From Isosphaera pallida ATCC 43644 (lineage in GTDB: Bacteria > Planctomycetota > Planctomycetia > Isosphaerales > Isosphaeraceae), in assembly GCF_000186345.1 (NCBI RefSeq), contig NC_014962.1, positions 2,632,450 to 2,696,449 on the forward strand: a DNA stretch of 64,000 nucleotides. Direction: 5' to 3'. Each line of letters starts with the position of its first letter. Position 1 is the stretch's first letter. Of this stretch, positions 5,683 to 62,592 are shown one piece after another. The translations under genes were made by a program, and so were the position numbers. The notes beneath the pieces are model-generated. The model saw nothing but the letters and a program-made list of their open reading frames with translations. It had not been told where the DNA came from and ran no database searches.

Positions 5683-6207
5683 GCGTGATGGAGGCGAGTC
5701 CAAGATGAGCGATCCTTCCCAAAACAAACGGCGGCACCATCCTGCACGCCGATGATTTCTTCTCTTCGATGACGCACGGAACGAATTGAAACGATTGACG
5801 GTGAAACCCAAGTCGCCCGGATCTGACCGGGAACCACTCAACTCAACGCGACGTGTGGGAACGCCAGCAAAACGGATCGGTCGGGTGAAACGGCGAGAGG
5901 GCGGGCGATTGAGGGATTGAATCAAGGCGACCAATACGCCAGAACGGATCGTATCAAACAAGATTAACCAACCCAGCGTGGTGCGACACGCAGGGCGACG
6001 GTGATGAACCCGGCGAGGCGGTGGGTCCACCAGACGTTAGGTGAGGGTCGGTTGCGGCCCGTCTCCGTCACGTCACCATTGTTTCCCGCGATCAAGGGTT
6101 CGGCAATCCCCACGTGAGATTGATGAAGAAATCGGGTCGATTTTCACGAACACCCACCAGGAGAGCGACCGGCCGGGTTGAGGTTGGGATACGACGGTTG
6201 GGGTTGG
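5683..6207. other. Gap upstream of purL
   Basis: About 525 bases separate the purL start from the stop of tyrA. No convincing gene, RNA or strong hairpin was found. It should contain the purL promoter on the minus strand, but I could not pick a credible -35/-10 pair. Confidence 0.4.
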
Positions 6208-30478: not shown

Positions 30479-30508
30479 AATCCGATCCAATCCGATCCAA
30501 TCCGATCT
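30479..30508 (-). repeat. Tandem 10-base repeat upstream of smpB
   Basis: Three consecutive 10-base units of AATCCGATCC type (the third ends in T), continuing into degenerate GATCTGA copies up to about 30519. It lies about 100 bases upstream of the smpB start, within the likely leader or promoter. It shares the GATCC core with the repeat before aroB, which suggests recurrent slippage and not a mobile element. Confidence 0.7.
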
Positions 30509-30598
30509 GATCTGACCCCATCCGACCGGCTTTGATCCCATTCGATTAATCCCGTTCCATCGGGTGAAGTCGATCCGTTTTCGGAGGTAGGGGTGAAC

Positions 30599-48141: not shown

Positions 48142-48720
48142 ATGCCGTTCACCCCGTCCGACTCCTCCATGACCACCCAACCGGTCCCGAGTTCAGAATC
48201 GCCATCGGTCCCGGCCACCGACGTGATCTGGTGCGTCTTCGAGTCGATGGGACACTCCTACGTCATCGACCTGGACGCAGTAGTCGAAGTGCGGATTGTC
48301 GAACGCCTCCTCCGCCTGCCCGATCCGCCCGGTTACGTGATCGGCCTGATCATGTTGCGCCGGGATCTCATCCCAGTACTTACCCCCGACTCGGAACCCG
48401 ATAGTCCCCCTCCCCAAGTGGAACCCGGCGCTTCGGTGCTCGTGCTAAGGTCGGAGGACCATTTCTGGGGCGTGGTGGTCAAAGAGGGTTCGGTTCGGGT
48501 TGTGAAAGACCAGCATATGTGGATTCCGTCAGAGGAATCGTGGCCCGACGACCCGACAGCGGCCCGCGTGCCCGGCTTCGACGGCTGGATTGTGATCAAC
48601 GGTCATCCTCATCGTCGGCTCGATCCGGCCAAAGCCCGGCTTAAGTTGCGTGCGGCGATCAAAGAGGACTACTCTCGGAGCTCCGCGGTTTCCCGCGAGA
48701 CGGTTTCCGACGAGCAGTAA
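48142..48720 (+). CDS. CheW-like adaptor protein
   Basis: A 192-residue protein whose residues about 25-165 resemble CheW: VIWCVFESMGHSYVIDLDAVVEV, RLPDPPGYVIGLIMLRRDLIPVL and VLRSEDHFWGVVV are the usual paired beta strands that bridge receptors to CheA. It has a short N-terminal Ser/Pro tail and a charged C-terminal tail. The ATG at 48142 is used, with a GGGAG-type site upstream. It is followed, after a 670-base gap, by a receptor-like gene and then the CheA-like kinase. Confidence 0.85.
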   Translation: MPFTPSDSSMTTQPVPSSESPSVPATDVIWCVFESMGHSYVIDLDAVVEVRIVERLLRLPDPPGYVIGLIMLRRDLIPVLTPDSEPDSPPPQVEPGASVLVLRSEDHFWGVVVKEGSVRVVKDQHMWIPSEESWPDDPTAARVPGFDGWIVINGHPHRRLDPAKARLKLRAAIKEDYSRSSAVSRETVSDEQ

Positions 48721-49390
48721 GTCGTGGCCGGGCAAGTCCGCGGCCGAGGGCGAGTCCGTCGGACGCGTCGGATGGTCGCTTTGGGTTTCGAGGAGTGCCG
48801 CGGGGTGGTCTGGCCTGGGAGTCGGTCCAGCTCCGACACGAAGGAAGGTCCAAGTCGGACCGACCTCCAAATATTGAATCGCCGAGTCATCGAATGATTT
48901 GGGACCGAATTTCTTTTTTCAGTCGATTTAATTTGAATTTCGCAACAATCAATAGGGAGACGATGAGTGGGTCGAGTGATTTTCTGAGTGTGGTTCGAGT
49001 TTTGAGGGAGGAGGATTGGGGTGGAGGAGTCGGCGCGGTGGTTGGATCGGGAGGTGGAGGCGGTCGCGAAGGCCGAACGCGACCTATATAAGTGATGACC
49101 GCGTTCGATTCCTCCGAGTCGATCCGGCTCGCGCGACCTGGGGTGGCCCGTTCGAGGTTGCCGGCGGGGTTGGTTGAGTTTGGTTGGCGTGAGTTGGAGG
49201 GGACGGGGTGAGGAGTTGAGCACGGGTCGCGGACCTCGGCCTCCCGACACGGGCCGCGGCATCCGGCCTGGGTTGGCTCGCCTCGAATAGCCCGTCGTTG
49301 GTGATGTGGCGGGAGGCGATCGATCACTCGTCGGATGTCGGGCGTTCCGGGTTCGACGCGCGACAACGGACGGAAGGACCAAGAACACCA
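48721..49390. other. Long gap with AT-rich core before the receptor gene
   Basis: About 670 bases. A locally AT-rich stretch at about 48870-48960 and the element TATATA at 49085-49090 are the only obvious signals. They may drive the receptor-CheA part of the cluster separately. A 43-codon Gly-rich frame at 48962 has a GGAG site but no other support. Confidence 0.45.
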
Positions 49391-50782
49391 ATGCGCCAGA
49401 GCGTGACATTCATGGGAGGAGTGGCCGGAGGGATGATCGCCCTTCTGGCCTGGGTGCTGCCGAGCCTCTTCAGCGCCTCGATGGTAGGCGGTCTGGCCGG
49501 GGTGGGTCTAGGCATCGCGTTGGGAGCGGGAATCGGTTTGGTGGCCTCGCAGGCGTCGCGCGAAGCGATGCTGGAAGCGTTGAGGAGCCTCCGCAAACCG
49601 GGCACGCCACCACCCTCCAGTGGAGTGGAGGAGTTCGACGAGTTGATCGGCGAGTTCCGCGAGGAACTGTTGAGGTGGAAGCGGGTGCGCGACGACGTGG
49701 AGCTGGCCGAACAAGTGGCCCGCGACCTCACCGGAGTCGGCACCGCCGCCCGCGCCGACGGAGCGGCGATCACGCTGTTGTTGACCGAGATTGCCACCAA
49801 CGCCAACCACCTGTTGGAGGAATTGGAACTGCTGCTGGATTCCAGCAATCGCGCCGCCACCGCCGCCGAGCAGATCGAAGAACCGCTGAGCCGAACCCTC
49901 GAGACCCTCGACGCCCTATTCAACAACACGCAATCGATCTCGAACAACACCGCGTTAGCGCGAAGGGACACCGACTTCTCCAGCCGGGAAATCCGCCGGG
50001 GCTTGGACCAGGTTCAGGCGATGAAGGAAGGGATGGAGAAAATCGAGGAATTGGTGGCCGACAACAGCGGCAAGATCAAGCGTTTGAGTATGAGTTCGAT
50101 CGAGATCAGCACCATCATCGAAGATATCGCCAAGATTTCGTCCAAGACCGAGAACCTCGCCACCAACGCCAAGCTCGCCGCCACCCGGGCGCGGGAACAC
50201 GGCCAGGAGTTTTCCAACATCGCCGACGAGTTCCGCGAGCTTTCGGAAAAGACCGCCGACGCGACCAACAACATCGGCGAACGGGTGCGGGCCATTCAGG
50301 CCGAAACCCAGGAGATCAGCCGGGCGTTCGAGGATGAACTAGGCAAAGTCGAACGCGAGGCCAACCGGGTCCGCGAGGCCAACGAGGCGCTCAACCGCAT
50401 CAACGAGATGTCGCAACGCTCAGCCAACCTGGTGGAAGGAATCAACCGGGCGGTCGCCGAACAGGTGAACGCGACGAAGGACGTCCTGGATGACATGAAA
50501 AAGGTGATCAAGATCAACGAGCAAACTACCACCGAACTGACCCACGCCCGACGCCACGTCGAAGCCCTGGCGCGGCGTTGCGAGCAGTTGCGGCGGTTGG
50601 GCCGCTCCGAGGCGCTGCGCAACCTGTCGGGCACCACCTTCGCCAAGACCAAATCCAAAGGAATCGGCGGGTTCGCCACCCCGTCCCTGAATGGCCCGGA
50701 GGTGGAGGAACCCGTCGCGGCGCCAGGCGCGACGTCGTCGCGGACGCAATCGCCGTTTTTGCAGAAGATTCCGGGAATGTGA
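49391..50782 (+). CDS. Methyl-accepting chemotaxis-like protein without sensor domain
   Basis: The 463-residue protein starts with two adjacent hydrophobic helices (VAGGMIALLAWVLPSLF and MVGGLAGVGLGIALGAGIGLV) with almost no loop between them, so there is no periplasmic ligand domain. The rest is a long antiparallel coiled coil of receptor type. Its hairpin-like region (about 246-290) reads IAKISSKTENLATNAKL, then AATRAREHGQEFSNIADEFR and ELSEKT. The register matches chemoreceptors, but the tip lacks the usual QTNLLALNAAIEAARAGE and is clearly diverged. The ATG at 49391 follows GGAAGGA at 14 bases, rather far. It precedes the CheA gene and is probably its dedicated input or scaffold. Confidence 0.85.
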   Translation: MRQSVTFMGGVAGGMIALLAWVLPSLFSASMVGGLAGVGLGIALGAGIGLVASQASREAMLEALRSLRKPGTPPPSSGVEEFDELIGEFREELLRWKRVRDDVELAEQVARDLTGVGTAARADGAAITLLLTEIATNANHLLEELELLLDSSNRAATAAEQIEEPLSRTLETLDALFNNTQSISNNTALARRDTDFSSREIRRGLDQVQAMKEGMEKIEELVADNSGKIKRLSMSSIEISTIIEDIAKISSKTENLATNAKLAATRAREHGQEFSNIADEFRELSEKTADATNNIGERVRAIQAETQEISRAFEDELGKVEREANRVREANEALNRINEMSQRSANLVEGINRAVAEQVNATKDVLDDMKKVIKINEQTTTELTHARRHVEALARRCEQLRRLGRSEALRNLSGTTFAKTKSKGIGGFATPSLNGPEVEEPVAAPGATSSRTQSPFLQKIPGM

Positions 50783-51100
50783 ACGCTGAGACCGTCGCGT
50801 CACCGTCGAGCGTGGCCAAGTTCCTTTGGGCAACGGATGATTGACGGCGTGGTGGCTTCCTCTTTCAATTGAAGAGAACGGGACCATTCGATCCACCCAG
50901 GATGCTGGATCAGACCACAGCAGGGTGTTCCTTCCCTACCCCGCCCGCGTTGTTCCATCAGGCTTGAGCTTATCTCAACGCCAAGAGCTGCCCAAATGTT
51001 CATGCCCCTCGTTTAGAACGACGCACCCAACAAAACCTCCCCGCGCCCACGATTTGCCTTGCCACCGCTTCGCTCTCTCCTCCGACCCGACGGAATGGCC
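50783..51100. other. Gap between the receptor-like and CheA genes
   Basis: About 318 bases with no supported gene or RNA. The CheA frame is open from 51059, but its first codons have no ribosome site. No clear promoter was found. Confidence 0.4.
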
Positions 51101-54100
51101 ATGACCGCACCCGACTCCGGTCCCCTGCTCGACTCGCTAACCCGCCAGGTCGAAGCCCTGGCCAAGAGCGACGCTGCGTTCCACGCCGCCGACCTGGACG
51201 GCTTGGCTGGTCTGGCGCGGTTGGCCGGGCGCGAACCAGCCGCCCGCCTGCTTGATTTCCTGGGCCAACTCGCTGACCTACGCGATGCCCTGCCCGAGAC
51301 CGATCGCGGCGACGCCGAGTCGGACCTTCGCGCTGGCTTGCGGCTGCTGAGCGGTCATCTTCTGATCGAATCGGAGCCGGGACGGGAATCGAAGCTCCCC
51401 TCCTCCCAACTCGAAGCCTTTCTGCAACAGGGTACGGAACGCTGGGGCAACTATCTGGCCTACCTAAGCGATGCCCCCCCCTCTGGATTCGAGGCCGATC
51501 CGTTCGCCCCCGCCGACCCGTTCGCCGTTGACTCGCTGGACCCGTTGGCGACCCTCTCCCCAACGGCTTTCCCCTCTGATCTTGATTCCCAACCCGACCG
51601 TCAGGACGACGCCCCGGCGGTCGATCTCAACACCTTGCTGGCGATGTTGGGTGGATCGACCAGCTCACCCCCTGCCTCGTCGGCCCCGAATCCGGCCCCG
51701 GCCTCCCTTTCTCCTTCCCCCCCCGCAGCCTCGGGATCGTCCCTACCCCCATCTTCTTCCCGATCCTCATTGTTTCCGCCGGTTTCGAGTGGCGGCCGTC
51801 TTGCGTCGCCTAGGACCACCCCGGCGTTCAACCCCAATGCGTCCGACCCGGCTCAACTTACTCGGAAGACGCCGGCTGGACCGTTGACCTCCTCCAAGTC
51901 GCCCAACGGACAACCCGCCCCCAACTCCTCCGCCGCGTCCCTGCTTCCTAAACCTACCCCTCCCAAGACAAAACCCTTCTTCTCTCCAACCGCCTCCCCC
52001 GCCTCAGCACCGTCGCCGCCTAGCGCGTCCTCCCCTACCCCCGCCGTGACCCAGCCCGTCACACCCCCACTGTACGAGAACCCCAAGGACGCGGGGTTCG
52101 AACGTCCAGCGGTGGCCGCTTCGGGTCGTGTGCCGCTGACGATTGACCCGGAACTCCGGGACGCCTTCTTGGTGGACGCCGACGAACAGTTCGAGGTGAT
52201 CACGTCGGTTCAACTCCAGCTGCGTCCAGGCTTGGAAGCCGAGGAGCCGCTCAAGGCGTTGCGACGCGCCCTGCACTCGCTCAAAGGAGGAGCAGGTCAG
52301 GTGGGCTTGAGCGAGCTTTCAGCATTCATCCACGCGCTTGAGGATCGGGTGGAGTCGATCCGCGGTCCGTTGGACGATTGGGACGTCTTGGCGATCAACC
52401 AGGGAATCGCGCATCTGGAACGCGGGGTCTCCGACCTCCGTCAAGGATTCAACCCCACCCCGGCCAGCCCTGAGCTTTGGCAGCAACTCAAGGATCCGGC
52501 TGGTTCACACGTCCGCGGCGCGGCGGCAGTCGGCGAGTCCAAGGACGCGGGGTTCGAGCGTCCAGCGGTGGTCGCTTCGGGTCGTATGCCGCTGACGATT
52601 GACCCGGAACTCCGGGACGCCTTCTTGGTGGACGCCGACGAACAGTTCGAGGTGATCACGTCGGTTCAACTCCAGCTGCGTCCAGGCTTGGAAGCCGAGG
52701 AGCCGCTCAAGGCGTTGCGACGCGCCCTGCACTCGCTCAAAGGAGGAGCAGGTCAGGTGGGCTTGAGCGAGCTTTCAGCATTCATCCACGCGCTTGAGGA
52801 TCGGGTGGAGTCGATCCGCGGTCCGTTGGACGATTGGGACGTCTTGGCGATCAACCAGGGAATCGCGCATCTGGAACGCGGGGTCTCCGACCTCCGCCAA
52901 GGATTCAACCCCACCCCGGCTAGCCCTGAGCTTTGGGACCTGTTGCACGGCCAGCCTGAGAAGGCAGCCATGACCGGCGGTCAGGCAGTCGTGACCGCCT
53001 TCTCAGGACAGGATCAACCGTGTTCAACGGCGGGCGATTCCCTGACGTTGGTGCCGCACAGGGGGATTGGGGCAATGCCGGCGTCTACGGCGATGCCGAC
53101 TCCGTTCCCCGCCCCTCCAGTGACACCTCAACCAAGTTCGGGAAGCTCGGTCGGGGCGACCAGTCCAGCGACGACGGCGGCCGATTCGGTGGTGCGGGTT
53201 TCGTCAGCGCGGATCGACGGCATGATGGACCTAGTGTCCGAATTGCTGACGCGGCGCGGCCGCCTGCCCGAATACGCCAATCAAATGAACCGCCTCGCCG
53301 AGGACGTGCGCAAAAGCCGCAACCGCCTGATGAACGACGTGGATCGCCTCCGCGACCTGATCACCCAGGCGCGGCGGGTACTAAGACCCAATCACCCCCT
53401 GATCGCTCAAGGTTCGGAACTGATCCGCCGACTGTCGGAACAGGCCGAGGACCTTGGGGTGGTCGCGGGCAACGCCCACGCCGCCGCCGAACCGCTGGCC
53501 GAGGATGGCGAGGCACTGGCCAAAATCACCGGCCACCTCTGGAGCGAGATGGAGGAGGTCCGCGTCGAACCCATCAAGCCAATGTTCCTACGTCTCCACC
53601 GCGACGTGATCGCCGCGGCCGACAAGCTCAACAGCAGCGGCGATCCGGCCAACCAACGCAAGGTCGAAGTCGTGCTGGAAGGGGAAACCACCGGGGTAGA
53701 CCGCTCCCTGATCAATCCAGCCTACGAAGCGCTGATGCACATCGTGCGCAACGCCGTCAGCCACGGAATCGAACCACCCGACGAACGAGTCAAACGCGGC
53801 AAGCCAGAAGTCGGACGGGTGACAATCTCCGCCTCCAGCGAGGCCAACGCCCTGGTCATCCGAGTGGCCGACGACGGCAAAGGGCTGGATTATGCCGCCA
53901 TCGAAGCCAAAGCCCGGGAAAAGAAACTGCTCGTCGGCCCGGAACGTCCAACCCATGAACAACTGAACAAAATTCTTTTCACCTCGGGGTTCTCGACCAA
54001 AGAGAAAGCCGACCAGGTGTCGGGCAAGGGAGTGGGGATGGACGTGGTGGCGGAGAAGATTCGCCAGCTCAAAGGTTCAGTGGAGATGGCGAGTCTGCCG

Positions 54101-55078
54101 GGCCGGGGGACCTTGATGACCATTCGTTTGCCGGTACGGTACGTACTGGAGCAAAGCCTCGTGGTCTGGATCGACGGCCAGTTGTTCGCGCTGCCGGTCT
54201 CGAACATCGAGACCACGGTGATGTTCGACCCCAAGGACCAGACCTCCGACGGCTCGCTGCCGGTGTTGTACATCCGTAACCAACGCACGCCGTTGATCTC
54301 AGCGCGTCAGGCGTTGGGGTTGTCCAGCACGCCGATGCCGCCCTCGCCCAAGGTTCTGGTGGTGCGCACCGAACAAGGGACGATGCTGGCGTTGATGGTG
54401 GACGCGATCGTAGGGGCACGGGAGCTGGTGTTTAAGCCGCTGCCCCCGCTTCTGAGCGGTCATCCGCTGGTAGCGGGAACCGGCCTGACCACCTCAGGCG
54501 ATTTGATCTTCCTGTTGAACCCCTCAGGCCTGGCGCGGTGCCGCCTGACCTCGACCAGTTGGCAGACGGCAATTATCCGCTCGGCGGCCAGCGTGCGGGA
54601 AAGCCGCTCGGTGCTGGTGGTGGACGACTCGCTGGCAGTGCGTAAGGTGGCAGCGAATCACCTGCGGACCCTGGGCTACGAGGTAGACGAGGCGGCCGAT
54701 GGGTTCGAGGCGCTCCAGAAACTGCGGGCCAAAACCTACCGCCTGGTGCTGTCCGACCTGGAAATGCCCCGAATGAATGGCTTCCAACTGCTGACCGAAG
54801 CCGGACGCCTGGGCACCCTCCAGGTGACCCCCGTGGTCGTGGCCAGCACCAAGTCGGACCCCGAGACGCAACGCAAAGTGATTCAACTGGGGGCGCGGAC
54901 CTTCGTGGCCAAACCCCTAGACGCCGACAAATGGCGACTCATCGAACCTCTCCTTCAAGGCGAATCCGGTGGCCAGTCCAATCCGCCTACCGCAGACCCT
55001 CCAACGGCGACGGTCCCAGCGCGTTCTCCTCAAGCGACGCCCCAACCGTCCGACCCCGTGTCCCTCTCCGGATCCTGA
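51101..55078 (+). CDS. CheA-type hybrid histidine kinase with duplicated Hpt domain
   Basis: A 1325-residue kinase. Residues 1-125 are helical and may be a degenerate Hpt. A Pro/Ser linker leads to two near-identical Hpt domains (329-460 and 481-612), each with LHSLKGGAGQVGL; the phospho-accepting residues are His392 and His544. After a second linker come the CheA dimerisation helices (about 698-760, RIDGMMDLVSELL), the ATPase domain with N-box HIVRNAVSHGIE, DDGKGLD and GKGVGMDVV, a CheW-like regulatory domain (about 1010-1145), and a C-terminal receiver (1169-1290) with Asp1219 in LSDLEMPRMNG. All catalytic motifs are present. The ATG at 51101 (or 51095) is used. Signal flow within one chain, from receptor through two Hpt sites to its own receiver, is plausible. 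Confidence 0.93.
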   Translation: MTAPDSGPLLDSLTRQVEALAKSDAAFHAADLDGLAGLARLAGREPAARLLDFLGQLADLRDALPETDRGDAESDLRAGLRLLSGHLLIESEPGRESKLPSSQLEAFLQQGTERWGNYLAYLSDAPPSGFEADPFAPADPFAVDSLDPLATLSPTAFPSDLDSQPDRQDDAPAVDLNTLLAMLGGSTSSPPASSAPNPAPASLSPSPPAASGSSLPPSSSRSSLFPPVSSGGRLASPRTTPAFNPNASDPAQLTRKTPAGPLTSSKSPNGQPAPNSSAASLLPKPTPPKTKPFFSPTASPASAPSPPSASSPTPAVTQPVTPPLYENPKDAGFERPAVAASGRVPLTIDPELRDAFLVDADEQFEVITSVQLQLRPGLEAEEPLKALRRALHSLKGGAGQVGLSELSAFIHALEDRVESIRGPLDDWDVLAINQGIAHLERGVSDLRQGFNPTPASPELWQQLKDPAGSHVRGAAAVGESKDAGFERPAVVASGRMPLTIDPELRDAFLVDADEQFEVITSVQLQLRPGLEAEEPLKALRRALHSLKGGAGQVGLSELSAFIHALEDRVESIRGPLDDWDVLAINQGIAHLERGVSDLRQGFNPTPASPELWDLLHGQPEKAAMTGGQAVVTAFSGQDQPCSTAGDSLTLVPHRGIGAMPASTAMPTPFPAPPVTPQPSSGSSVGATSPATTAADSVVRVSSARIDGMMDLVSELLTRRGRLPEYANQMNRLAEDVRKSRNRLMNDVDRLRDLITQARRVLRPNHPLIAQGSELIRRLSEQAEDLGVVAGNAHAAAEPLAEDGEALAKITGHLWSEMEEVRVEPIKPMFLRLHRDVIAAADKLNSSGDPANQRKVEVVLEGETTGVDRSLINPAYEALMHIVRNAVSHGIEPPDERVKRGKPEVGRVTISASSEANALVIRVADDGKGLDYAAIEAKAREKKLLVGPERPTHEQLNKILFTSGFSTKEKADQVSGKGVGMDVVAEKIRQLKGSVEMASLPGRGTLMTIRLPVRYVLEQSLVVWIDGQLFALPVSNIETTVMFDPKDQTSDGSLPVLYIRNQRTPLISARQALGLSSTPMPPSPKVLVVRTEQGTMLALMVDAIVGARELVFKPLPPLLSGHPLVAGTGLTTSGDLIFLLNPSGLARCRLTSTSWQTAIIRSAASVRESRSVLVVDDSLAVRKVAANHLRTLGYEVDEAADGFEALQKLRAKTYRLVLSDLEMPRMNGFQLLTEAGRLGTLQVTPVVVASTKSDPETQRKVIQLGARTFVAKPLDADKWRLIEPLLQGESGGQSNPPTADPPTATVPARSPQATPQPSDPVSLSGS
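52085..52936 (+). repeat. In-frame tandem duplication of a 396-base Hpt segment
   Basis: Bases 52085-52480 and 52541-52936 are copies with a 456-base offset (152 codons). By eye I count five differences in 396 positions (about 98.7% identity), and the 60 bases between the copies are unrelated. The duplication covers the entire Hpt domain with its upstream KDAGFERPAV lead. The high DNA identity indicates a recent event or ongoing gene conversion. Confidence 0.95.
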
Positions 55079-55199
55079 CCGTCCCGTATCATTGGTTCGA
55101 CCCGGCCCATCCGGCTCACGCTCACATGCTCACCGAATGGAACCCCGCGTTCCTCTCTCGAATCCCTAACCCGACCTTCCAACTGAGACGAGACCCGAC

Positions 55200-56744
55200 A
55201 TGGAACGACCCCACGTCCTGGTGATCGACGACAGCAACGCCATCCGCAAGACGGTGGAATGCCACCTTTCCCAAGCTGGTTATCGAATCAGCCAGGCTGC
55301 CGACGCCGAAAAGGGGTTGAGTCTGGCGGCGTCGGCCAAGCCGGACTTGATCCTGTTGGATCACCAACTACCCGGCACTACCGGCGACCAAGTCTGCCGC
55401 AAACTTTGGGAAAACCCCGCGACCAATGAGATCCCTGTATTGATCAGCTCCTCATTGCGTCTTCAGGTGATGCACCTCTACACGGAGTTTCCCAACGCCA
55501 TCGACTCGCTGCCCAAACCCTATACCCCCGACAACCTCAAAAGCGCAGTGGCCAACGCCCTGACGATCGGCCCCAAAATCATCCAGGCAGCTAAAACCGG
55601 CGGCTCGATCGAAGACGTCAACTCACCGCCGCCAGCGCTGCTGTCGGGCAACCTGGAGGTCTTCCCAGCGCGGGCAGTGCTGGACTTCGTGAATAACTGC
55701 AAGATCACCGGACGTCTGAGCTTCGAGGTGGAGGGCGGCCTGCAAATCCGGTTCTGCGTGGCCGGCGGCCGTATCCAGGCGGTCTACTCGCCCAACGCCC
55801 CCACTGAGGAAGTCGCCCGCTGTCTGCCCGAGGAACTCTCCGATTTGGCCCCACTACTGACCGTCACCCTCACCGAACAACGTGACCCCCAAATGGGCGG
55901 TCTGGTCAACCTGCTCCAGAAAAGCCTCTCTGACCCGAGGCGTCTGCGGGCCCTGCTGCGCGCCCAAGCGGCGATTCTGACCTACGGCACCCTGCACAGC
56001 CGGGTCGGCGAATTCGCTTTGGAACCCCTGGATACCCCGCCGCCGATGTTCCAGGCGTTCCCGTTGCAAACCAGTCTGCCCGCCCTGGCCGTCGAAGGGG
56101 TGCGGCGTTGCGCCGATCCGATCGAGGCTGACAGTTGGGCGTCACTGGTCTTCGCCCGGCAAACCCGCCCCGGAGCCAATCTCGACCGGGCCGGCCTCAA
56201 CCCGGTGGAACTCAAGATTCACACCCTATTCGACGGGGCGCACAATCTGGCGGCGGTCGCTCAAGCCGTCGGGGTCCATCTCGCCGAAGTCGCCGCGGTC
56301 GCCCAAGGTCTGGAACTCACCGGCTTGGTCGAACGCCGCGACGCGCTGGCCAACGCCCATGTCATGGTGCTGGAGGACGATACCGAGGCCGTTCGCCTGA
56401 TCCAACGGGTTCTGGGACCCGAAGGCATGGGCTTCCAACTCAAGATCGTCCGCGACCGCATCGGAGCCAGCCTGCTGTTACGCCGCACCAAGTTCGACCT
56501 GATCATCATGGCATTGGACACCCCTGAGCAAGAGGCGTTCCTCCGTCAAATCAAACAAAACCACCCGGAAACCCGGTTCATCGGCCTGGCTGGAATGCCC
56601 GACGACGAAAGCGAACTGACCCGGTTCGACCAACTCGGGCTGGATCACGTGCTTCATCGTCCCCTGTCAGAAAGCGACCTGGTTTCGACCATTCGCCACG
56701 TCCTGGGCGGTGGTCAACTCGTGGGCGCCGGGCCGGTCCGCTGA
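55200..56744 (+). CDS. Response regulator with PATAN/DUF4388 domain and a second, degenerate receiver
   Basis: A 514-residue protein. Residues 4-120 are a receiver domain with acid pair Asp10/Asp11, phospho-acceptor Asp54 in LILLDHQLP and Lys in LPKPYTP. A DUF4388/PATAN-like domain follows (about 145-270: LSGNLEVFPARAVLDFVNNC, KITGRLSFEVEGGLQIRF). A helical middle part contains LDRAGLNPVELKIHTLFDG. A second receiver fold lies near 388-500 (HVMVLEDDTEAVRLI), but its acceptor position is Ala438 (LIIMALDTP) and the conserved Lys is Arg (HRPL), so it should not be phosphorylated. PATAN regulators are known in alternative chemosensory systems. It follows the CheA gene directly and is the most likely output of the kinase. 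Confidence 0.87.
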   Translation: MERPHVLVIDDSNAIRKTVECHLSQAGYRISQAADAEKGLSLAASAKPDLILLDHQLPGTTGDQVCRKLWENPATNEIPVLISSSLRLQVMHLYTEFPNAIDSLPKPYTPDNLKSAVANALTIGPKIIQAAKTGGSIEDVNSPPPALLSGNLEVFPARAVLDFVNNCKITGRLSFEVEGGLQIRFCVAGGRIQAVYSPNAPTEEVARCLPEELSDLAPLLTVTLTEQRDPQMGGLVNLLQKSLSDPRRLRALLRAQAAILTYGTLHSRVGEFALEPLDTPPPMFQAFPLQTSLPALAVEGVRRCADPIEADSWASLVFARQTRPGANLDRAGLNPVELKIHTLFDGAHNLAAVAQAVGVHLAEVAAVAQGLELTGLVERRDALANAHVMVLEDDTEAVRLIQRVLGPEGMGFQLKIVRDRIGASLLLRRTKFDLIIMALDTPEQEAFLRQIKQNHPETRFIGLAGMPDDESELTRFDQLGLDHVLHRPLSESDLVSTIRHVLGGGQLVGAGPVR

Positions 56745-56945
56745 ACTCCCCCCGCCGACGCGGTTCAACCCGCCCCGCTTGGTTTCGATCCGCTTCGACT
56801 CGCTTCACGTCGTTGCCTCGCAGCCGCCCTGCCGCTCCCTGCGATGACCTCTTTGGCGACGGTCGCGCCGCCCGCGCCGGTCCCTTCCCGGCGGCGCGAC
56901 CATGTGATCCCACCTCATCCGACTTTCCGCGCACGAGGTTCCGCC

Positions 56946-58058
56946 ATGTCCAACCACTGGTCCGCCAACGCCGATCCCGACAACCTCGACCTCGCCTATC
57001 AGGACACCGTCGCCCTGCTGCAGACCGAGTTGGACAAACTCGAACAAGAGAACCGCCTGCTTCGCGAAGCCAACGCCGCAGCGGTCCACACCCCCCCCGT
57101 GGACACCAGCGCGCTGGAACGCCAGTACGAGGAACGCCTGGCCAGCCTCAATCAGGAGTTGCAGGTTCGGGAGGACAATATCAATTGGTTGCTCGATCAG
57201 ATGCAAATGTTGGAGCAAACCATCCTGGCTCACCGCCAGGACCGGGAGCAACTGATGCATTGGCTCACGGAAATTGAAAAGCGGGTCGAAACCCACGTGG
57301 AATCGATCTCCGCAGCTCCTTCCGAGGAACTCACCCGCGAGGTTAGCGAACTCAAACGGCGATTGGACGCGGTTCAACGGGAGTCGGACCAGAAAGTCCG
57401 CACCCTGGAAAACGAGAAGCGGCACCTTGAAGCCCAAAAGCAACAGCTCCAGGCCGAGTTGGATCGGCTCTCCGGCCAAGTGGTCGAATTGACCGAAACC
57501 CTGCAAACCGTCTCGGCTCAGGCTCAGGAGGCCATGAGCGGTCAGGCCGACGCCCCAGAGTTCGGCGAGGACGGGGTCAGCCAAGCCTCGATCATCGAAG
57601 CGCTCGAGGAGGAGAACCGGCGTTTGCGACAAACCTGCGTCGAACTGACCCGCGCCTCGGCCCAAGTCGAAGAGTTCGAAGCCCTGCAAAACCAACTGGC
57701 TGAACTGCAAACCCATTACGCCGCCGCCTACCATGAACTCGAAACGACCCGCCAACAATTGCAGGATCAAATCAAGGCGGCGGAGGAGGAGAAGGCTCAA
57801 TTAATCAAAGCGCATGAGATCGAAAAGGCCGAGCTCGAAGCCCGGATCGCCCGGGAAGTTCAACAAGCCCAACGATTGGCCGAGGAACAGCAACGACGGG
57901 CGGCAGCGAGTCGGGACACCTCGATCGACGAGCGGATCCGAGCCTTCCGGGAACACCTTCAAGAGTTGCAAAGCCGCGAAGAAGCCGACAAGAAACACTC
58001 CACCGGTGGGTTCGCCAAACGGATCTCCCAAGTTTGGGTCAAGACCCGCCCCCGTTGA
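56946..58058 (+). CDS. Long coiled-coil protein
   Basis: The 370-residue protein is nearly all predicted coiled coil, from VALLQTELDKLEQENRLLRE to the end, with short breaks near 50 and 225. No membrane segment or catalytic motif is present. The C-terminal tail is basic (GGFAKRISQVWVKTRPR). The ATG at 56946 follows GAGG at 8 bases; an earlier in-frame start at 56844 adds residues without structure. It lies between the PATAN regulator and the GTPase part of the cluster, so a structural or scaffold role linking them is possible. Confidence 0.8.
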   Translation: MSNHWSANADPDNLDLAYQDTVALLQTELDKLEQENRLLREANAAAVHTPPVDTSALERQYEERLASLNQELQVREDNINWLLDQMQMLEQTILAHRQDREQLMHWLTEIEKRVETHVESISAAPSEELTREVSELKRRLDAVQRESDQKVRTLENEKRHLEAQKQQLQAELDRLSGQVVELTETLQTVSAQAQEAMSGQADAPEFGEDGVSQASIIEALEEENRRLRQTCVELTRASAQVEEFEALQNQLAELQTHYAAAYHELETTRQQLQDQIKAAEEEKAQLIKAHEIEKAELEARIAREVQQAQRLAEEQQRRAAASRDTSIDERIRAFREHLQELQSREEADKKHSTGGFAKRISQVWVKTRPR

Positions 58059-58573
58059 GCCAAGAAGGCGGCGTTCGATCATCCAGCCCGCTCCATCTGG
58101 CGCGGGCTGGACGTGGAGATCTTTATGGTTCCCGAATCCGACTCGGTTCCTCCAGAACCCCTTGCCGCCGAGCGTGGTCTGGCCGGTTGGCCTGAGGCGG
58201 AGTAGAATAAAAGGGCCTTGGCGCTCCCTTCCTCAATCCCTCCTCCGCCCCCTCGGCCGTCGAGTCGGCTTTGACGGGAAACACGAAACGAAACATGGAG
58301 TCACGCCGGACGGTGTTGAGGGCATTTCGATGGTTGCACGTCATGCCTGAGGGCGGCCCGACACCGCGTGAAGGACGCTCAGCCCCAAGCGGAACCCAGC
58401 CCGACGGACCCTTCTCGGCACGGTCGAAAAGCAATGTCGGGAGCGGGAGCGGCTCCAAGCCGCAAGACGCGGTGAGGACGCGGGTTGGGTTGGAGCGGTG
58501 AAGGTCGCTCAGTACTAGATGAGTAATGGGTCGGAGGATGTGATCGACGGTTTCGCGGGGAGTTGCCAGTCCG
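58059..58573. other. Gap inside the signalling cluster
   Basis: About 515 bases with the hairpin at 58083-58110 but no supported gene. An open frame of 76 codons (58271-58501) has Ser/Arg-rich content and no ribosome site and was not annotated. This gap, with the hairpin, is the natural boundary between the chemosensory genes and the GTPase half. Confidence 0.4.
58083..58110 (+). terminator. Hairpin after the coiled-coil gene
   Basis: A 9-bp stem, CCAGCCCGC (58083-58091) with GCGGGCTGG (58102-58110), with a 10-base loop, begins 25 bases after the stop of the coiled-coil gene. No T-run follows. It may end or stabilise the upstream transcript and so divide the cluster into two units. Confidence 0.5.
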
Positions 58574-59347
58574 ATGAGTTCCGATCCTTTCGATCCCCGA
58601 TCCCCCTTCGCCGGCATAGGTCCGAGGTTCGACGAGGACGGCGAAGGCAACCGTCGGGTGCCGTCGCTGGTTCAACAACAATTTTTCGAGCTGAGCCTGC
58701 AAAACCTCCGCGCGAAGCTCAACGAGGCGATCAATCAGTTCGCGGACTGGGCGTCGGCGCGTGCGGAACGCGAGCGGAAACTCCAGCAGCGTATCGAGGA
58801 ACTGGAGGAGGCGCTGGCAGCCGCCTCCCAGAGTCCCTCGACCTCGGGATCGGGTGAATTAGCCATCGACGGAACTTGGGCCGACGAACGAGAAGAGTTC
58901 CTGGTCCAACTCGAACACGATAAGCGGCTGTTGGCCGAAGCCTGGGCGCGGTTGGAAGAAGAACGGATCGCGGCTGGCTTTCCTAACGCGGCGGCGGCGG
59001 TGGGGTTGGGTACCGGCCTGCCATCGCCCACCGCCGTGGCATCCTCGCCGACGGGAAGCGTGGCAATCGGTGGAGCCGGGTTGGTGGGTGGCCCCCACGC
59101 GATTGGCCACGGGCCTCGGGTCATCGAAAGTGCGACCGGTCGGCCCACGGCGATCGTTCCCCCTCCCCCCGTCGGCGTTCCCCACCCGTCCCCGCCGTTC
59201 GCCGCGCCATCGTCCCCTGTGCCCGTGCCCGTGGTTTCCCCCCCCACGTCGGTCTCTTCGTTGCGTCCCCCCAACAACTCCACCTCGCAGGAGTTGCGCC
59301 GCCAGTTGGAAGCGTTGCAACGCGACGTCAAACGCAACGCCCGCTGA
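58574..59347 (+). CDS. Coiled-coil protein with Pro-rich tail
   Basis: The 257-residue protein has a coiled-coil core (about 33-85, FFELSLQNLRAKLNEAINQF to RIEELEEALAAASQ, then EFLVQLEHDKRLLAEAWARL). A Gly/Ala/Pro-rich stretch follows (145-225), and a short basic helix closes the chain (SQELRRQLEALQRDVKRNAR). The ATG at 58574 is the only good start; a GGGGAG site lies about 13 bases upstream. No family is recognised. It precedes the FGE-like gene by 412 bases in the same direction. Confidence 0.75.
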   Translation: MSSDPFDPRSPFAGIGPRFDEDGEGNRRVPSLVQQQFFELSLQNLRAKLNEAINQFADWASARAERERKLQQRIEELEEALAAASQSPSTSGSGELAIDGTWADEREEFLVQLEHDKRLLAEAWARLEEERIAAGFPNAAAAVGLGTGLPSPTAVASSPTGSVAIGGAGLVGGPHAIGHGPRVIESATGRPTAIVPPPPVGVPHPSPPFAAPSSPVPVPVVSPPTSVSSLRPPNNSTSQELRRQLEALQRDVKRNAR

Positions 59348-59759
59348 CCCCCGGCAGATCGTCCAAAACCCAACCTCGACTCGATCCTCTTCCTCCGTCC
59401 GCGTCGTTTTGGTTCAATACGCTCCATGCTAAGCAGCCCGTTTCCGCCATTGCCAAGTTCGGGACAATTTCCCGAAGAGTGCCAAGGCGAGGAGTCGAAT
59501 GGTTGGTGATGGCTTGTCCGATTCACTCTCGAATCGCCAGTCATTCCTGCTCGAGTTGGGTCGTGTTGACCAGGGTGACGAGGGCGAGTTGACCTCATCC
59601 CGCCTTGCCGCTCGTGTTGTGAAAGGGAGGGATTGGTCGCGTGGTTGTCGGCGGCGTGGTCGTGTGTGGGTGAAGAGGGCCCCGCTTCGGCTTTCGCGTC
59701 CGCCTTCGCGCTTGTGTTCGATCCCACCTTGATCGTCGCCGTCACTCAAGGAACCACCC
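59348..59759. other. Gap before the FGE-like gene
   Basis: About 412 bases without supported genes. AAGGA just before the GTG at 59760 is the ribosome site of the next gene. No convincing promoter or RNA. Confidence 0.4.
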
Positions 59760-60749
59760 GTGTCCTCGCGCTCATCGTTGCTCACTCGGATTGTCAACCA
59801 AGTTCTGGGGGTTGGGAGGAACGGCCACGGCGCTCGGGGCCGCCCGGCGCATCCGCCGCGCAACGACGCCGAGCTGATTGATTTGCTGATCCGCCAGAAC
59901 CGCTATGCGTTGGTATTGCGACGGGATCAGGCCGACGTGATCCCCCACGACGCGACCCTCGAAGCCTGGCGGGTTTTAGAAGAGTCAATGGCCCTGATCC
60001 CCGGCGGGGTGATCCCGATCGTGGCTCAAGATGGTTCCAACCAGCTCATGGAGGTTCCCGCCTTTTACCTGGACCGCTACGCGGTGACCAACGCCCAGTA
60101 CGCCATCTTCGTGGACGAAGGGTGCTACGAGAAACTCGACCTTTGGCCCCAGGAAGTTTGGGAGGCGCTGACCACCCGCTTCCTGGACCAGTCGGGTCAA
60201 CCCGGTCCGGCCTTCTGGAACCGAGGCCGTTACCCCCCCGGTAAGGAGAATCACCCCGTGGTGGGCGTCTGCTGGTACGAGGCGTGCGCCTATGCGCAAT
60301 GGGTGGGCAAGCGATTGCCAACCGCCGCGGAGTGGCAGAAAGCCAGCGGTTTTCCCGATCAGTTGGGCCGCGGGGGTCAGGGGACGCGCTATCCCTGGGG
60401 CGATATTTTCGCCGCTGGCAAGGCCAACCTCGCCCAGGCCGGCATAGGTGAGACCGTTCCAGTCAACGAGTTCAAGGCTGGCACCACGCGCAATGGCATC
60501 TATCAGCTGTGCGGGAACGTCTGGGAATGGCTCGACGAGCCGCTGGAGATGATTCACAAGCATCCCGACGAGCAATTTCTCACGCTTCAGCCGATGAGGC
60601 GGATCGTGGGCGGAGCCTACGACACCTACTTGATTCATGAAGCGACCAACACGTTCGTGACCGGCCAACCAGAACTGGATCGCCGTCCCAACATCGGGTT
60701 TCGCTGCGCGGTGTTTCTGGATCAGATTCGTTCTCAGATCACCGATTGA
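59760..60749 (+). CDS. Formylglycine-generating enzyme-like (SUMF1 family) protein
   Basis: The 329-residue protein matches the FGE-sulfatase (SUMF1/DUF323) family, built on a C-type-lectin-like fold. Hallmarks are YLDRYAVTNAQYAIFV, HPVVGVCWYEACAYAQWVGK, RLPTAAEWQKAS, RYPWGDIF, NGIYQLCGNVWEWLDE, GGAYDTY and RPNIGFRCA. Some members convert Cys to formylglycine, while many others are non-catalytic recognition domains. A lone Cys in GFRC is present; I cannot say if the active pair is. The N-terminal 60 residues are a separate helical region. It starts with GTG at 59760, settled by AAGGA 7 bases upstream. In predicted conflict systems this fold often accompanies GTPase/GAP1 genes, as here. Confidence 0.88.
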   Translation: MSSRSSLLTRIVNQVLGVGRNGHGARGRPAHPPRNDAELIDLLIRQNRYALVLRRDQADVIPHDATLEAWRVLEESMALIPGGVIPIVAQDGSNQLMEVPAFYLDRYAVTNAQYAIFVDEGCYEKLDLWPQEVWEALTTRFLDQSGQPGPAFWNRGRYPPGKENHPVVGVCWYEACAYAQWVGKRLPTAAEWQKASGFPDQLGRGGQGTRYPWGDIFAAGKANLAQAGIGETVPVNEFKAGTTRNGIYQLCGNVWEWLDEPLEMIHKHPDEQFLTLQPMRRIVGGAYDTYLIHEATNTFVTGQPELDRRPNIGFRCAVFLDQIRSQITD

Positions 60750-60765
60750 ATTGAGTTGAGTTGAG
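60746..60765 (+). repeat. TTGAG pentamer repeat over a stop codon
   Basis: Four consecutive TTGAR pentamers (one TTGAA then three TTGAG) overlap the stop of the FGE-like gene. They are probably slippage-derived. Length variation here would not alter the protein, because the stop is in the first unit. Confidence 0.65.
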
Positions 60766-60852
60766 TGGGAAGGCTTCGCGTCCGGTTTCTGGTCGCCGCG
60801 TTGATTGGCTCGAGTCGCCCCCTCCCCCCCGCCCCGTTGGCCAGAGGGAAGC

Positions 60853-61782
60853 ATGCCGCCATCGTATTCGTATTCCTACTCCAGCGACGACTCGTACAGT
60901 CCGTCGCGTCAACCGCCGCCGCCACCCATGCACGGCTACGGTCCCCAGAACCCGTGTCCGTTGTGCGACGGAAGTTGCCCAGTCTGCATGGTGCCGGGCG
61001 ACGTGATCAACTCGATCCAGGTCCGTCAGGGAACCACCCCCAAATACACCGCGATCCTCGGTCCCTCCAACGTGGGTAAAACCGTGTTCCTGGGAACCCT
61101 GTTGGATCTTCTGTCGCGTGGTACCGGCGGCCTGCGCGGGGTGGCTCGGGGGGCGTTTTCCCTGGCGCTTCAACGCAACGTGATGCTCGAGTTGGAACGC
61201 CAGCGCTTCCCGGCCAAAACCCCCAACGAACCAGATCGTTGGAATTGGGTCCACTGCGAAGTCACCGCTGGAACCGGTCGCAAGGAGAAGCGGGCCGATA
61301 TCATTGCCCCCGACGTGGCCGGCGAAGCAGTCGCCGGCGAACTCAACGTGCCCGGCTCCAACCCGATCATCCACGGGCTGTTGCTGAAATGCGCGGGGCT
61401 CGTGGTGCTGATCGACTTGGTTTCGGTGCTGGAGGAGGGTCGCGAGGCCGAGCTGTTCGCCAACCAGCTTTTGGTCTACCTCACGCAGCTGCGCGGGGCC
61501 AAGCGGGGCAAGCTCAATTTACCCGTAGCCCTCGTATTCACCAAAAGCGATCTCAGCGACGAGCCAATGAACGACCCCAACGCCTTCGCCAAATCCAATG
61601 TGAGCAACCTCTATCAGTTCTGCACCTCGCAATTGTCGCGGTTTCGTTTTTTCGCCTCGGGGGTGGCCGGTTCGGTCGGCTTCCTAGTCGGTCCCACGGG
61701 TCAACGGGTCTGCGTGCCACTGCGGATCCAACCCCGGGGGATTGTCGAACCATTCGCCTGGATGTTCCAACATTACCGCTAA
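60853..61782 (+). CDS. Zinc-ribbon GTPase, double-GTPase-like (TRAFAC clade)
   Basis: A 309-residue predicted GTPase. Residues 35-45 carry two CxxC pairs (Cys35, 38, 42, 45; CPLCDGSCPVC), a zinc-ribbon-like knuckle. The G1 loop is GPSNVGKT (70-77), the Walker B/switch II segment is IIAPDVAGE (Asp154), and the base-specificity motif is TKSD (230-233). The N-terminal 30 residues are Tyr/Ser/Pro-rich. The pattern ILGPSNVGKTVFLGTLL is close to the double-GTPase 2 family described in GAP1-associated conflict systems; this match is from memory. The ATG at 60853 follows GAGGGAAG. It is followed 114 bases later by a GAP1-N-like gene, which strengthens the call. Confidence 0.8.
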   Translation: MPPSYSYSYSSDDSYSPSRQPPPPPMHGYGPQNPCPLCDGSCPVCMVPGDVINSIQVRQGTTPKYTAILGPSNVGKTVFLGTLLDLLSRGTGGLRGVARGAFSLALQRNVMLELERQRFPAKTPNEPDRWNWVHCEVTAGTGRKEKRADIIAPDVAGEAVAGELNVPGSNPIIHGLLLKCAGLVVLIDLVSVLEEGREAELFANQLLVYLTQLRGAKRGKLNLPVALVFTKSDLSDEPMNDPNAFAKSNVSNLYQFCTSQLSRFRFFASGVAGSVGFLVGPTGQRVCVPLRIQPRGIVEPFAWMFQHYR

Positions 61783-61896
61783 GACGGAGCGGATCGGCGT
61801 AGTCAACCGTTTGTATATTCCCAGTTTGCGATCCCTCCCTTTCCCCGGTTCGTTTTCGTTGGGAGGCGGCGACTTCAAAGGAGGTCGTTGACGGCA

Positions 61897-62592
61897 ATGA
61901 ACACAGTGCGTCCGGTTCCAATTTCGGCGCTAGTGGCCGATCAAGCGATCTTCACATCATTGCGGCGGGGCGGCATGTCCGGTTATCACCTGGTGTCGCG
62001 TTCACCGGGCTTGACCGAAGGGGAAGCCCGTGAAATCGCCACCACTGCGCCCTCGCACGATAGTCTCATTGTGGACGCCAACAACACGGTCTCGGTCAAT
62101 TTCCAATTCCTGGCCAGTCAACGCTACGCGCTGTCACGCACCTGTCAAGGCCATCCGGAGTACTCCGGACGCGGGGGTCGCCAACTCTATACCCACTTCC
62201 TGATTTTTTCTCCCGACGTGTTAAGATACGTTCACTTTCAACCGTTTCATCTTTATCGCGACGCCTTGACCCGAGGGTTGCTGCACTACCGACCTCATCC
62301 TTCGCAACAATTACCCCGGATTCAATTTTCGAGTCTGTACCCGCTGCCCACCGCCACCTTTTGGGAAGAACGGGCTCGTGCCCTGGGGTTGGGCGACCTG
62401 CATCGCCTGGCCCGCGAGATCCGCGCGGTGCGGCGTCCGCTGGTGGTCCCGTTTGGCGGCAATCGCTCTGACTTGGTCGAGTGTCTTTTGGGAATGCTCG
62501 ACGGCCCTTTGGTGGGAGCGCTGAGTTTCTCAACCAGCCTCAAACCATCCAACGTGCGGCCTTATCGCCTGTGCGTGGTGGGGGAGTCTTGA
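61897..62592 (+). CDS. GTPase-associated protein, GAP1-N-like
   Basis: A 231-residue protein resembling the N-terminal domain of GAP1 (GTPase-associated protein 1). The pattern is VADQAIFTSLRRGGMSGYHLV, then SRSPGLTEGEAREIA, and GRQLYTHFLIF. Usual GAP1 proteins are longer, with middle and C-terminal domains; this one ends after the N-terminal part and a short helix region, so it is a minimal form. The ATG at 61897 has AAAGGAGG 12 bases upstream; a TTG at 61888 is too close to that site. It is the last gene of the plus-strand cluster and pairs with the preceding GTPase. The family is inferred from remembered features. Confidence 0.7.
   Translation: MNTVRPVPISALVADQAIFTSLRRGGMSGYHLVSRSPGLTEGEAREIATTAPSHDSLIVDANNTVSVNFQFLASQRYALSRTCQGHPEYSGRGGRQLYTHFLIFSPDVLRYVHFQPFHLYRDALTRGLLHYRPHPSQQLPRIQFSSLYPLPTATFWEERARALGLGDLHRLAREIRAVRRPLVVPFGGNRSDLVECLLGMLDGPLVGALSFSTSLKPSNVRPYRLCVVGES

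Follow-up and report, generated by a model that had tools for sequence, protein, structure and literature searches.

A CheA-type hybrid histidine kinase of Isosphaera pallida carries two Hpt domains with identical DNA cores, set in repeat copies with sharp edges; Hpt copy number varies among its relatives, and sister arrays have mosaic histories. We consider it probable (roughly 0.6) that an in-frame duplication in the Isosphaera lineage gave rise to the second domain, that the cores have since been kept identical by recombination and that the kinase has two interchangeable phospho-acceptors. Homogenisation that recurs across arrays is a more interesting result than the I. pallida case alone, and it suggests that recombination acting on the phosphotransfer core is part of what maintains multiple Hpt domains in CheA kinases.

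The gene was identified by its open frame and Pfam domains at positions 51101–55078 of the window, by which we mean the whole 64,000-nucleotide stretch analysed; the window sits on a contig of 5,472,964 bases in a genome whose two contigs total 5,529,304 bases. The parts of this gene and the three neighbouring genes given below with coordinates lie on the plus strand. Pfam detected an H-kinase_dim dimerisation domain (53186–53359; 25.1 bits, cut-off 23), the HATPase_c ATP-binding domain of the kinase (53726–54136), a CheW-like domain (54155–54535) and a C-terminal receiver domain (Response_reg, 54611–54931). The four core domains by which PMC10782961 defines CheA (Hpt, dimerisation, HATPase and CheW) are thus all present, each exceeding its Pfam curated cut-off, and two Pfam Hpt stretches, each with a phospho-accepting histidine, make the protein a multi-Hpt CheA. 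The N-terminal ~130 amino acids (51101–51520) align in 15 orthologous loci and contain a WGxYL-like motif; scanned together with the following linker, they matched no Pfam family at E 0.01, and hhalign gave no match to suggest a hidden third Hpt in these 130 amino acids (probability 1.6%).

The two repeat copies (52083–52480 and 52539–52936) are 398 nt each, with an offset of 456, a multiple of three, and they differ by five mismatches and no indels, giving 98.7% identity across the whole repeat. The earlier note had proposed two Hpt copies at this offset with about five differences in 396 bases, a reading that our count of 5 in 398 bears out, as Pfam does its statement that a whole Hpt domain was duplicated: each copy encodes a complete Hpt domain within one open frame. 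The Pfam Hpt envelope of the first copy spans 52151–52426, and the stretch matching it in the second spans 52607–52882. The HSLKGG motif occurs twice, with the phospho-accepting residues His392 (codon 52274–52276) and His544 (codon 52730–52732), also as the earlier note had them; this numbering assumes the start ATG 51101 and would shift with either alternative start (ATG 51095 or TTG 51059). Over the 273 nt of a domain model built for this analysis, the two domains are identical in DNA, and they are identical in amino acids across the domain. Similarity ends abruptly on either side of both copies. In first-copy coordinates the mismatches lie at 52102, 52116, 52130, 52441 and 52465; three are synonymous third-position changes and two are nonsynonymous (A339V and V344M, ATG 51101 numbering).

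We scanned 484 kb of the I. pallida genome, made up of the window, twenty 20-kb stretches at even spacing and a further 20-kb locus with the other CheA, for direct repeats lying within 5 kb, and only this one was both 120 nt or longer and 95% or more identical. A 30-nt piece of the core had two matches in the genome and no more, each of them in this CheA; the repeat is therefore not a product of chance. Repeats of other kinds were also observed: a 5-kb stretch of the I. pallida chromosome (L171, 10354–15363) contains several dispersed direct repeats of 148–220 nt that are 87–92% alike, and a short tandem repeat with periods of 10 and 20 nt lies at 30479–30545 of the window.

All five mismatches fall in the outer 48 and 40 nt of the repeat, leaving an identical core of 310 nt (52131–52440, equal to 52587–52896). 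Under random placement, a clean run of this length had P=0.0028; the absence of all five differences from the Pfam Hpt envelope (0/5 inside) had P=0.0026, and the three third-position differences alone gave P=0.011, although all three tests were applied after inspection and rest on few differences (five). A plain recent tandem duplication would have a head-to-tail join without a foreign spacer and randomly spread differences. Instead, we found the clean core and, between the copies, a 58-nt spacer (52481–52538) that is no second repeat copy and has no copy at either flank. A simple head-to-tail duplication does not suffice to account for an array whose spacer matches neither flank. The spacer as a full second copy of the linker was ruled out, since its flank matches were equalled by 129 and 43 of 300 shuffles. 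In a sequence comparison, the spacer's final 50 nt are similar to the 50 nt with which the repeat begins. This likeness was matched by 1 of 300 simple shuffles; among 3000 dinucleotide shuffles it was matched by 56, 47 and 71 when three gapped schemes were used and by 1674 without gaps; in a global test, 78 of 8985 windows scored as high untrimmed and 2 of 8985 after trimming that followed inspection. These values hint that the end of the spacer may be a decayed remnant of an older partial repeat copy. We detected no decayed homologous flank beside the I. pallida repeats, unlike in the arrays of clade B described below. Taken together, the edge-confined differences and the non-repeat spacer point to later homogenisation and not simply to a recent event.

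We searched 44 other Isosphaeraceae genomes for orthologues of this CheA (clade A; E below 1e-80) and found them in 15, one of which (G029) has two, giving 16 loci. Each of the 15 loci whose sequence extends through the N-terminus has a single Hpt, and none has two copies; the sixteenth is cut by a contig end. The fifteen include the second, more distant copy in G029 (L162) and L154, in which a second Hpt-like stretch (E 0.31, 1.5 bits) was not counted as an Hpt. Since all testable clade-A loci have a single Hpt, the extra domain is specific to the Isosphaera lineage among the genomes compared, which include one Isosphaera genome only. The kinase cores of these relatives are only 44–48% identical to that of I. 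pallida (43% for L162), so the age of the gain is not tightly bounded.

We also took 60 further CheA loci, 58 from Isosphaeraceae and two from other planctomycetes. One Hpt was present in 48, two in 11 and three in one, and a pair at least 93.8% identical in DNA was found in 4 of the 12 multi-Hpt proteins; the last 20 of these loci and a later 20 were partly picked (for two Hpt domains, or for completing clade B), so these frequencies are not unbiased. The first 40 loci, taken in list order, included six with two Hpt domains, whose best pairs were 96.7, 89.7, 83.3, 79.7, 77.5 and 63.5% identical, that is, 1/6 above 93% and 2/6 above 89%. The earlier note had called such a duplication uncommon; that fits a repeat found once in the 484 kb scanned, but is less clear for multi-Hpt CheA, given the one pair in six above 93%. 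Of 81 CheA frames altogether (the 60, 19 more and the two of I. pallida), 62 had a single Hpt and 13 had two; one frame each had three and four, and four had none, one of which reads as N. In three groups of the second Isosphaeraceae CheA clade (clade B), Hpt number varies among congeners (1 or 2, 1 or 2, and 2 or 3), which supports the earlier suggestion that the array could expand and contract.

Clade B also allowed copies to be compared within and between proteins. In genus g15, four species have two Hpt domains and one has a single copy, which is at most 84.8% like any other in the genus. Core DNA identity within the four two-Hpt proteins was 93.1, 96.3, 96.7 and 88.6%, each value exceeding all 24 between-species values (73.6–85.0%), so that in 4/4 species the copies are more alike within a protein than between species. 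At third positions of the core, identity was 82–91% within proteins versus 43–71% between species; because the excess holds there, protein-level selection fails to explain this homogeneity. A quick nucleotide tree joined all four pairs (support 0.957–0.967), with one Hpt from another genus beside G028. In trees of the cores, grouping by position was rejected for G014, G062 and G063 (AU p 1.4e-6 for H1 and 1.6e-6 for H2), and pair support was 100/100, 100/99 and 93/93, with G014 weak at 52/17. The tails just behind the cores rejected the within-protein pair in G062 (p 0.0096, uncorrected, one of four species tested); within-protein pairing was not rejected in the tails of G063 (p 0.156) and G014 (p 0.467), G028 was paired in both core and tail, and position groups in the g15 tails were merely not rejected. 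In G062, two parts of one repeat thus seem to have different histories, as conversion confined to the core would leave.

In genus g9, tails were 37–50% identical within proteins versus 72.5–93.1% at the same position between species; since they follow position and not protein, the duplication is older than the three species. The g9 cores mostly follow position as well (80.5–93.5% nucleotide identity at the same position between species versus 81.7–86.2% within proteins), and the contrast between core and tail could be due in part to the core being the more strongly constrained of the two. At core third positions, however, identity was 70–80% within proteins versus 60–63% across positions between species, an excess that speaks for exchange, because one old duplication without exchange would give equal values. 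In genus g10, G026 has three Hpt domains, of which Hpt1 and Hpt3 are 100% identical in DNA and Hpt2 is at 90–91%; its two-Hpt relative G009 showed no excess (86.6% within versus 84.6–89.0% between). Independent re-duplication in each species is possible for single cases, but would fit the G062 and g9 tails poorly.

Look-alike arrays were also found beyond the Isosphaeraceae. We compared 98 CheA frames, namely the window's own, 80 relatives (the best 80 of 503, obtained with a query that itself has two Hpt domains), the 16 family loci and L163. An Hpt was present in 93 of the 98, and 27 frames had two or more Hpt domains of at least 86 amino acids. A pair at least 94% identical in DNA occurred in three of these 27: I. 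pallida, Candidatus Thermochlorobacter aerophilum (L027; two Hpt domains by Pfam) and a Desulfobulbaceae bacterium (L031; four by Pfam), the latter two being metagenome-assembled genomes, with the caution that this demands. The L027 CheA has 392 identical bases, six differences at the edges, abrupt ends and a 29-nt linker. Four relatives (L028, L032, L036 and L061) have a two-Hpt array at the place aligned with that of L027, with the tails and the following region best conserved, and their within-protein, codon-based Hpt DNA identities were 72.1, 81.4, 83.5 and 79.7%, respectively. The L027 copies were more alike within the protein than between species, and in the L032/L061 control the copies differed about equally within and across species, with no excess similarity; the between-species values of this group come from an identity function like one that, with free end gaps, gave false values of 100% in a nearest-neighbour comparison of Desulfobulbales Hpt domains, which was set aside together with its tree. 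Unless every lineage duplicated anew, the L027 array seems to go back to an old duplication whose copies have become identical once more. On that condition, its near-identical copies, set against 72.1–83.5% in relatives, show that an old duplication can look brand new.

Run tests within domains gave P below 0.01 in 7 of 23 pairs, a count that conserved active-site residues could have raised. The second I. pallida CheA (L163, 9532–14409) is about 1625 amino acids long and has four Hpt domains; in amino acids its best pair reaches only 51%, so the same genome also contains an array without homogenisation. A Gloeomargaritales CheA frame (L065) has a repeat of 135-nt period, 86–91% alike, at 5244–5927, between its N-terminal and later Hpt domains. 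Across these comparisons, our best reading is that CheA Hpt arrays can evolve in concert, by gene conversion or unequal exchange, which would keep the phospho-acceptors interchangeable, although such homogenisation is not universal, as G009, L032/L061 and L163 showed no excess.

The earlier note regarded the I. pallida duplication as recent. A gain specific to the lineage fits our data; a simply recent event fits them less well. It is less likely, though by no means remote, that the duplication is genuinely recent and no conversion took place. In that case a 398-nt unit would have been copied, the linker of one copy would have disappeared or been exchanged, either at once or afterwards, and five point mutations would have accumulated. 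The 98.7% identity over the full repeat, the abrupt ends and the single Hpt of the 15 clade-A loci would all be expected on that account. Against it count the clustering of differences at the repeat ends (P=0.003, after inspection), the extra loss event that the 58-nt spacer would require, and L027, which looks alike within a group sharing the two-Hpt array. An assembly artefact is hardly credible: the genome was assembled from 454 and Illumina reads, but PMC3072084 describes a finished sequence whose error rate is below 1 in 100,000, and the libraries included a paired-end one of 11 kb; moreover, the copies differ at five sites, the spacer between them keeps the frame, and similar arrays occur in genomes of 3, 4 and 9 contigs (G028, G026 and G062, respectively).

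Two further proposals concern what the second domain does. It is very unlikely that the second Hpt is a specialised branch whose histidine serves a different receiver, for example the C-terminal receiver for one and the adjoining REC-DUF4388-REC regulator for the other. This CheA does have a receiver of its own and a separate two-receiver regulator next to it, and for ChpA, with its many phosphotransfer domains, a broadened phosphorylation repertoire has been named as one hypothesis (PMC12632253), but the two Hpt domains are identical in amino acids, which makes branching less likely, as specificity could come from position or linker only. We also think it unlikely that Hpt arrays are live, reversible in-frame copy-number switches, in which homologous recombination among Hpt cores of identical DNA would toggle each kinase between one and three phospho-acceptors, tune signalling gain and keep the copies interchangeable.

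Under the reading that we prefer, duplication followed by homogenisation, an in-frame duplication in the Isosphaera lineage would have produced the two Hpt domains, and recombination between the two direct repeat copies, by gene conversion or unequal exchange, would have kept their cores identical. We infer by analogy with the other arrays that conversion acts in the I. pallida CheA itself. Two interchangeable phospho-accepting histidines would then be offered to one ATP-binding domain and the same response regulators, and His392 and His544 would presumably both be used, each being phosphorylated by the single kinase domain. A doubled capacity or local concentration of phospho-acceptor would be the simplest effect. 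If this is true, Hpt copies are kept interchangeable, their number changes readily in evolution, and species comparisons that match Hpt domains by position can be misleading. With its two identical copies, the CheA of I. pallida, an organism of biosafety level 1, offers a small cultivable model for asking what role a second Hpt has.

The gene lies in a block shared among Isosphaeraceae (window 48142–62592, L147–L162) that encodes CheW, an MCP-like receptor, CheA, a REC-DUF4388-REC regulator and coiled-coil, FGE-sulfatase-like, DO-GTPase and GAP1-N2 proteins. Upstream of CheA, Pfam identified a CheW-like adaptor (48142–48720) and a receptor with an MCP signalling domain (49298–50782, start codon uncertain), with tblastn matches in 10 and 14 of the 16 orthologous loci, respectively; the REC-DUF4388-REC response regulator (55200–56744) was identified likewise and matched in 16/16, and the FGE-sulfatase-like, DO-GTPase and GAP1-N2 proteins matched in 13 of 16 each. 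A chemosensory system adjoining a double-GTPase module strikes us as unusual. The regulator at 55200–56744 is the likely partner and output of this CheA. We take Pfam DUF4388 to be the PATAN domain of cyanobacterial phototaxis regulators, in which case the presence of this regulator beside CheA likens the I. pallida system to cyanobacterial PATAN phototaxis systems. Unlike them, it has neither a light receptor nor a pilus gene assigned to it. The cyanobacterial REC-PATAN chemosensory outputs are reported to interact with the pilus motor PilB1 (PMC9090330, PMC7690835), and I. pallida IS1B is described as a hot-spring planctomycete that glides, is phototactic and has pili but no flagella (PMC3072084). 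By analogy, a pilus-motor output would suit such an organism, a link of this CheA to light or pili being conjectural.

Multi-Hpt CheA proteins are themselves already known. PMC10782961 counted at least two Hpt domains in 18% of 13,673 CheA sequences and a receiver in over 90% of these multi-Hpt proteins. Like the known members, including Pseudomonas ChpA and that of Synechocystis, of the ACF and Tfp classes, the I. pallida protein has more than one Hpt domain on the N-terminal side of its dimerisation, kinase and CheW domains and a C-terminal receiver; it fits the Tfp/ACF chemosensory class by domain layout alone. Why ChpA has so many phosphotransfer domains is, according to a review of the Pil-Chp system, poorly understood (PMC12632253). 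Among the matches listed in our literature searches, which left most subscription journals outside, there was no paper on conversion in Hpt arrays, and 'concerted evolution' with CheA and Hpt gave one unrelated paper. PMC10782961 treats domain duplication and copy number, and 'gene conversion' occurs 0 times in its main text; the I. pallida protein differs in that its two Hpt domains are identical in DNA over the domain. For the process itself, the nearest comparison is PMC6053082, which describes long-lasting concerted evolution of 26 prokaryotic genes, with paralogues more alike than orthologues, mainly through recurrent gene conversion; none of the terms 'CheA', 'chemotaxis' and 'histidine kinase' appears in the main text of that paper. 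The homogenised CheA arrays resemble those genes in that copies within a genome are more alike than copies between species, and they differ in that the copies there are separate genes, whereas in CheA they are a domain inside one gene.
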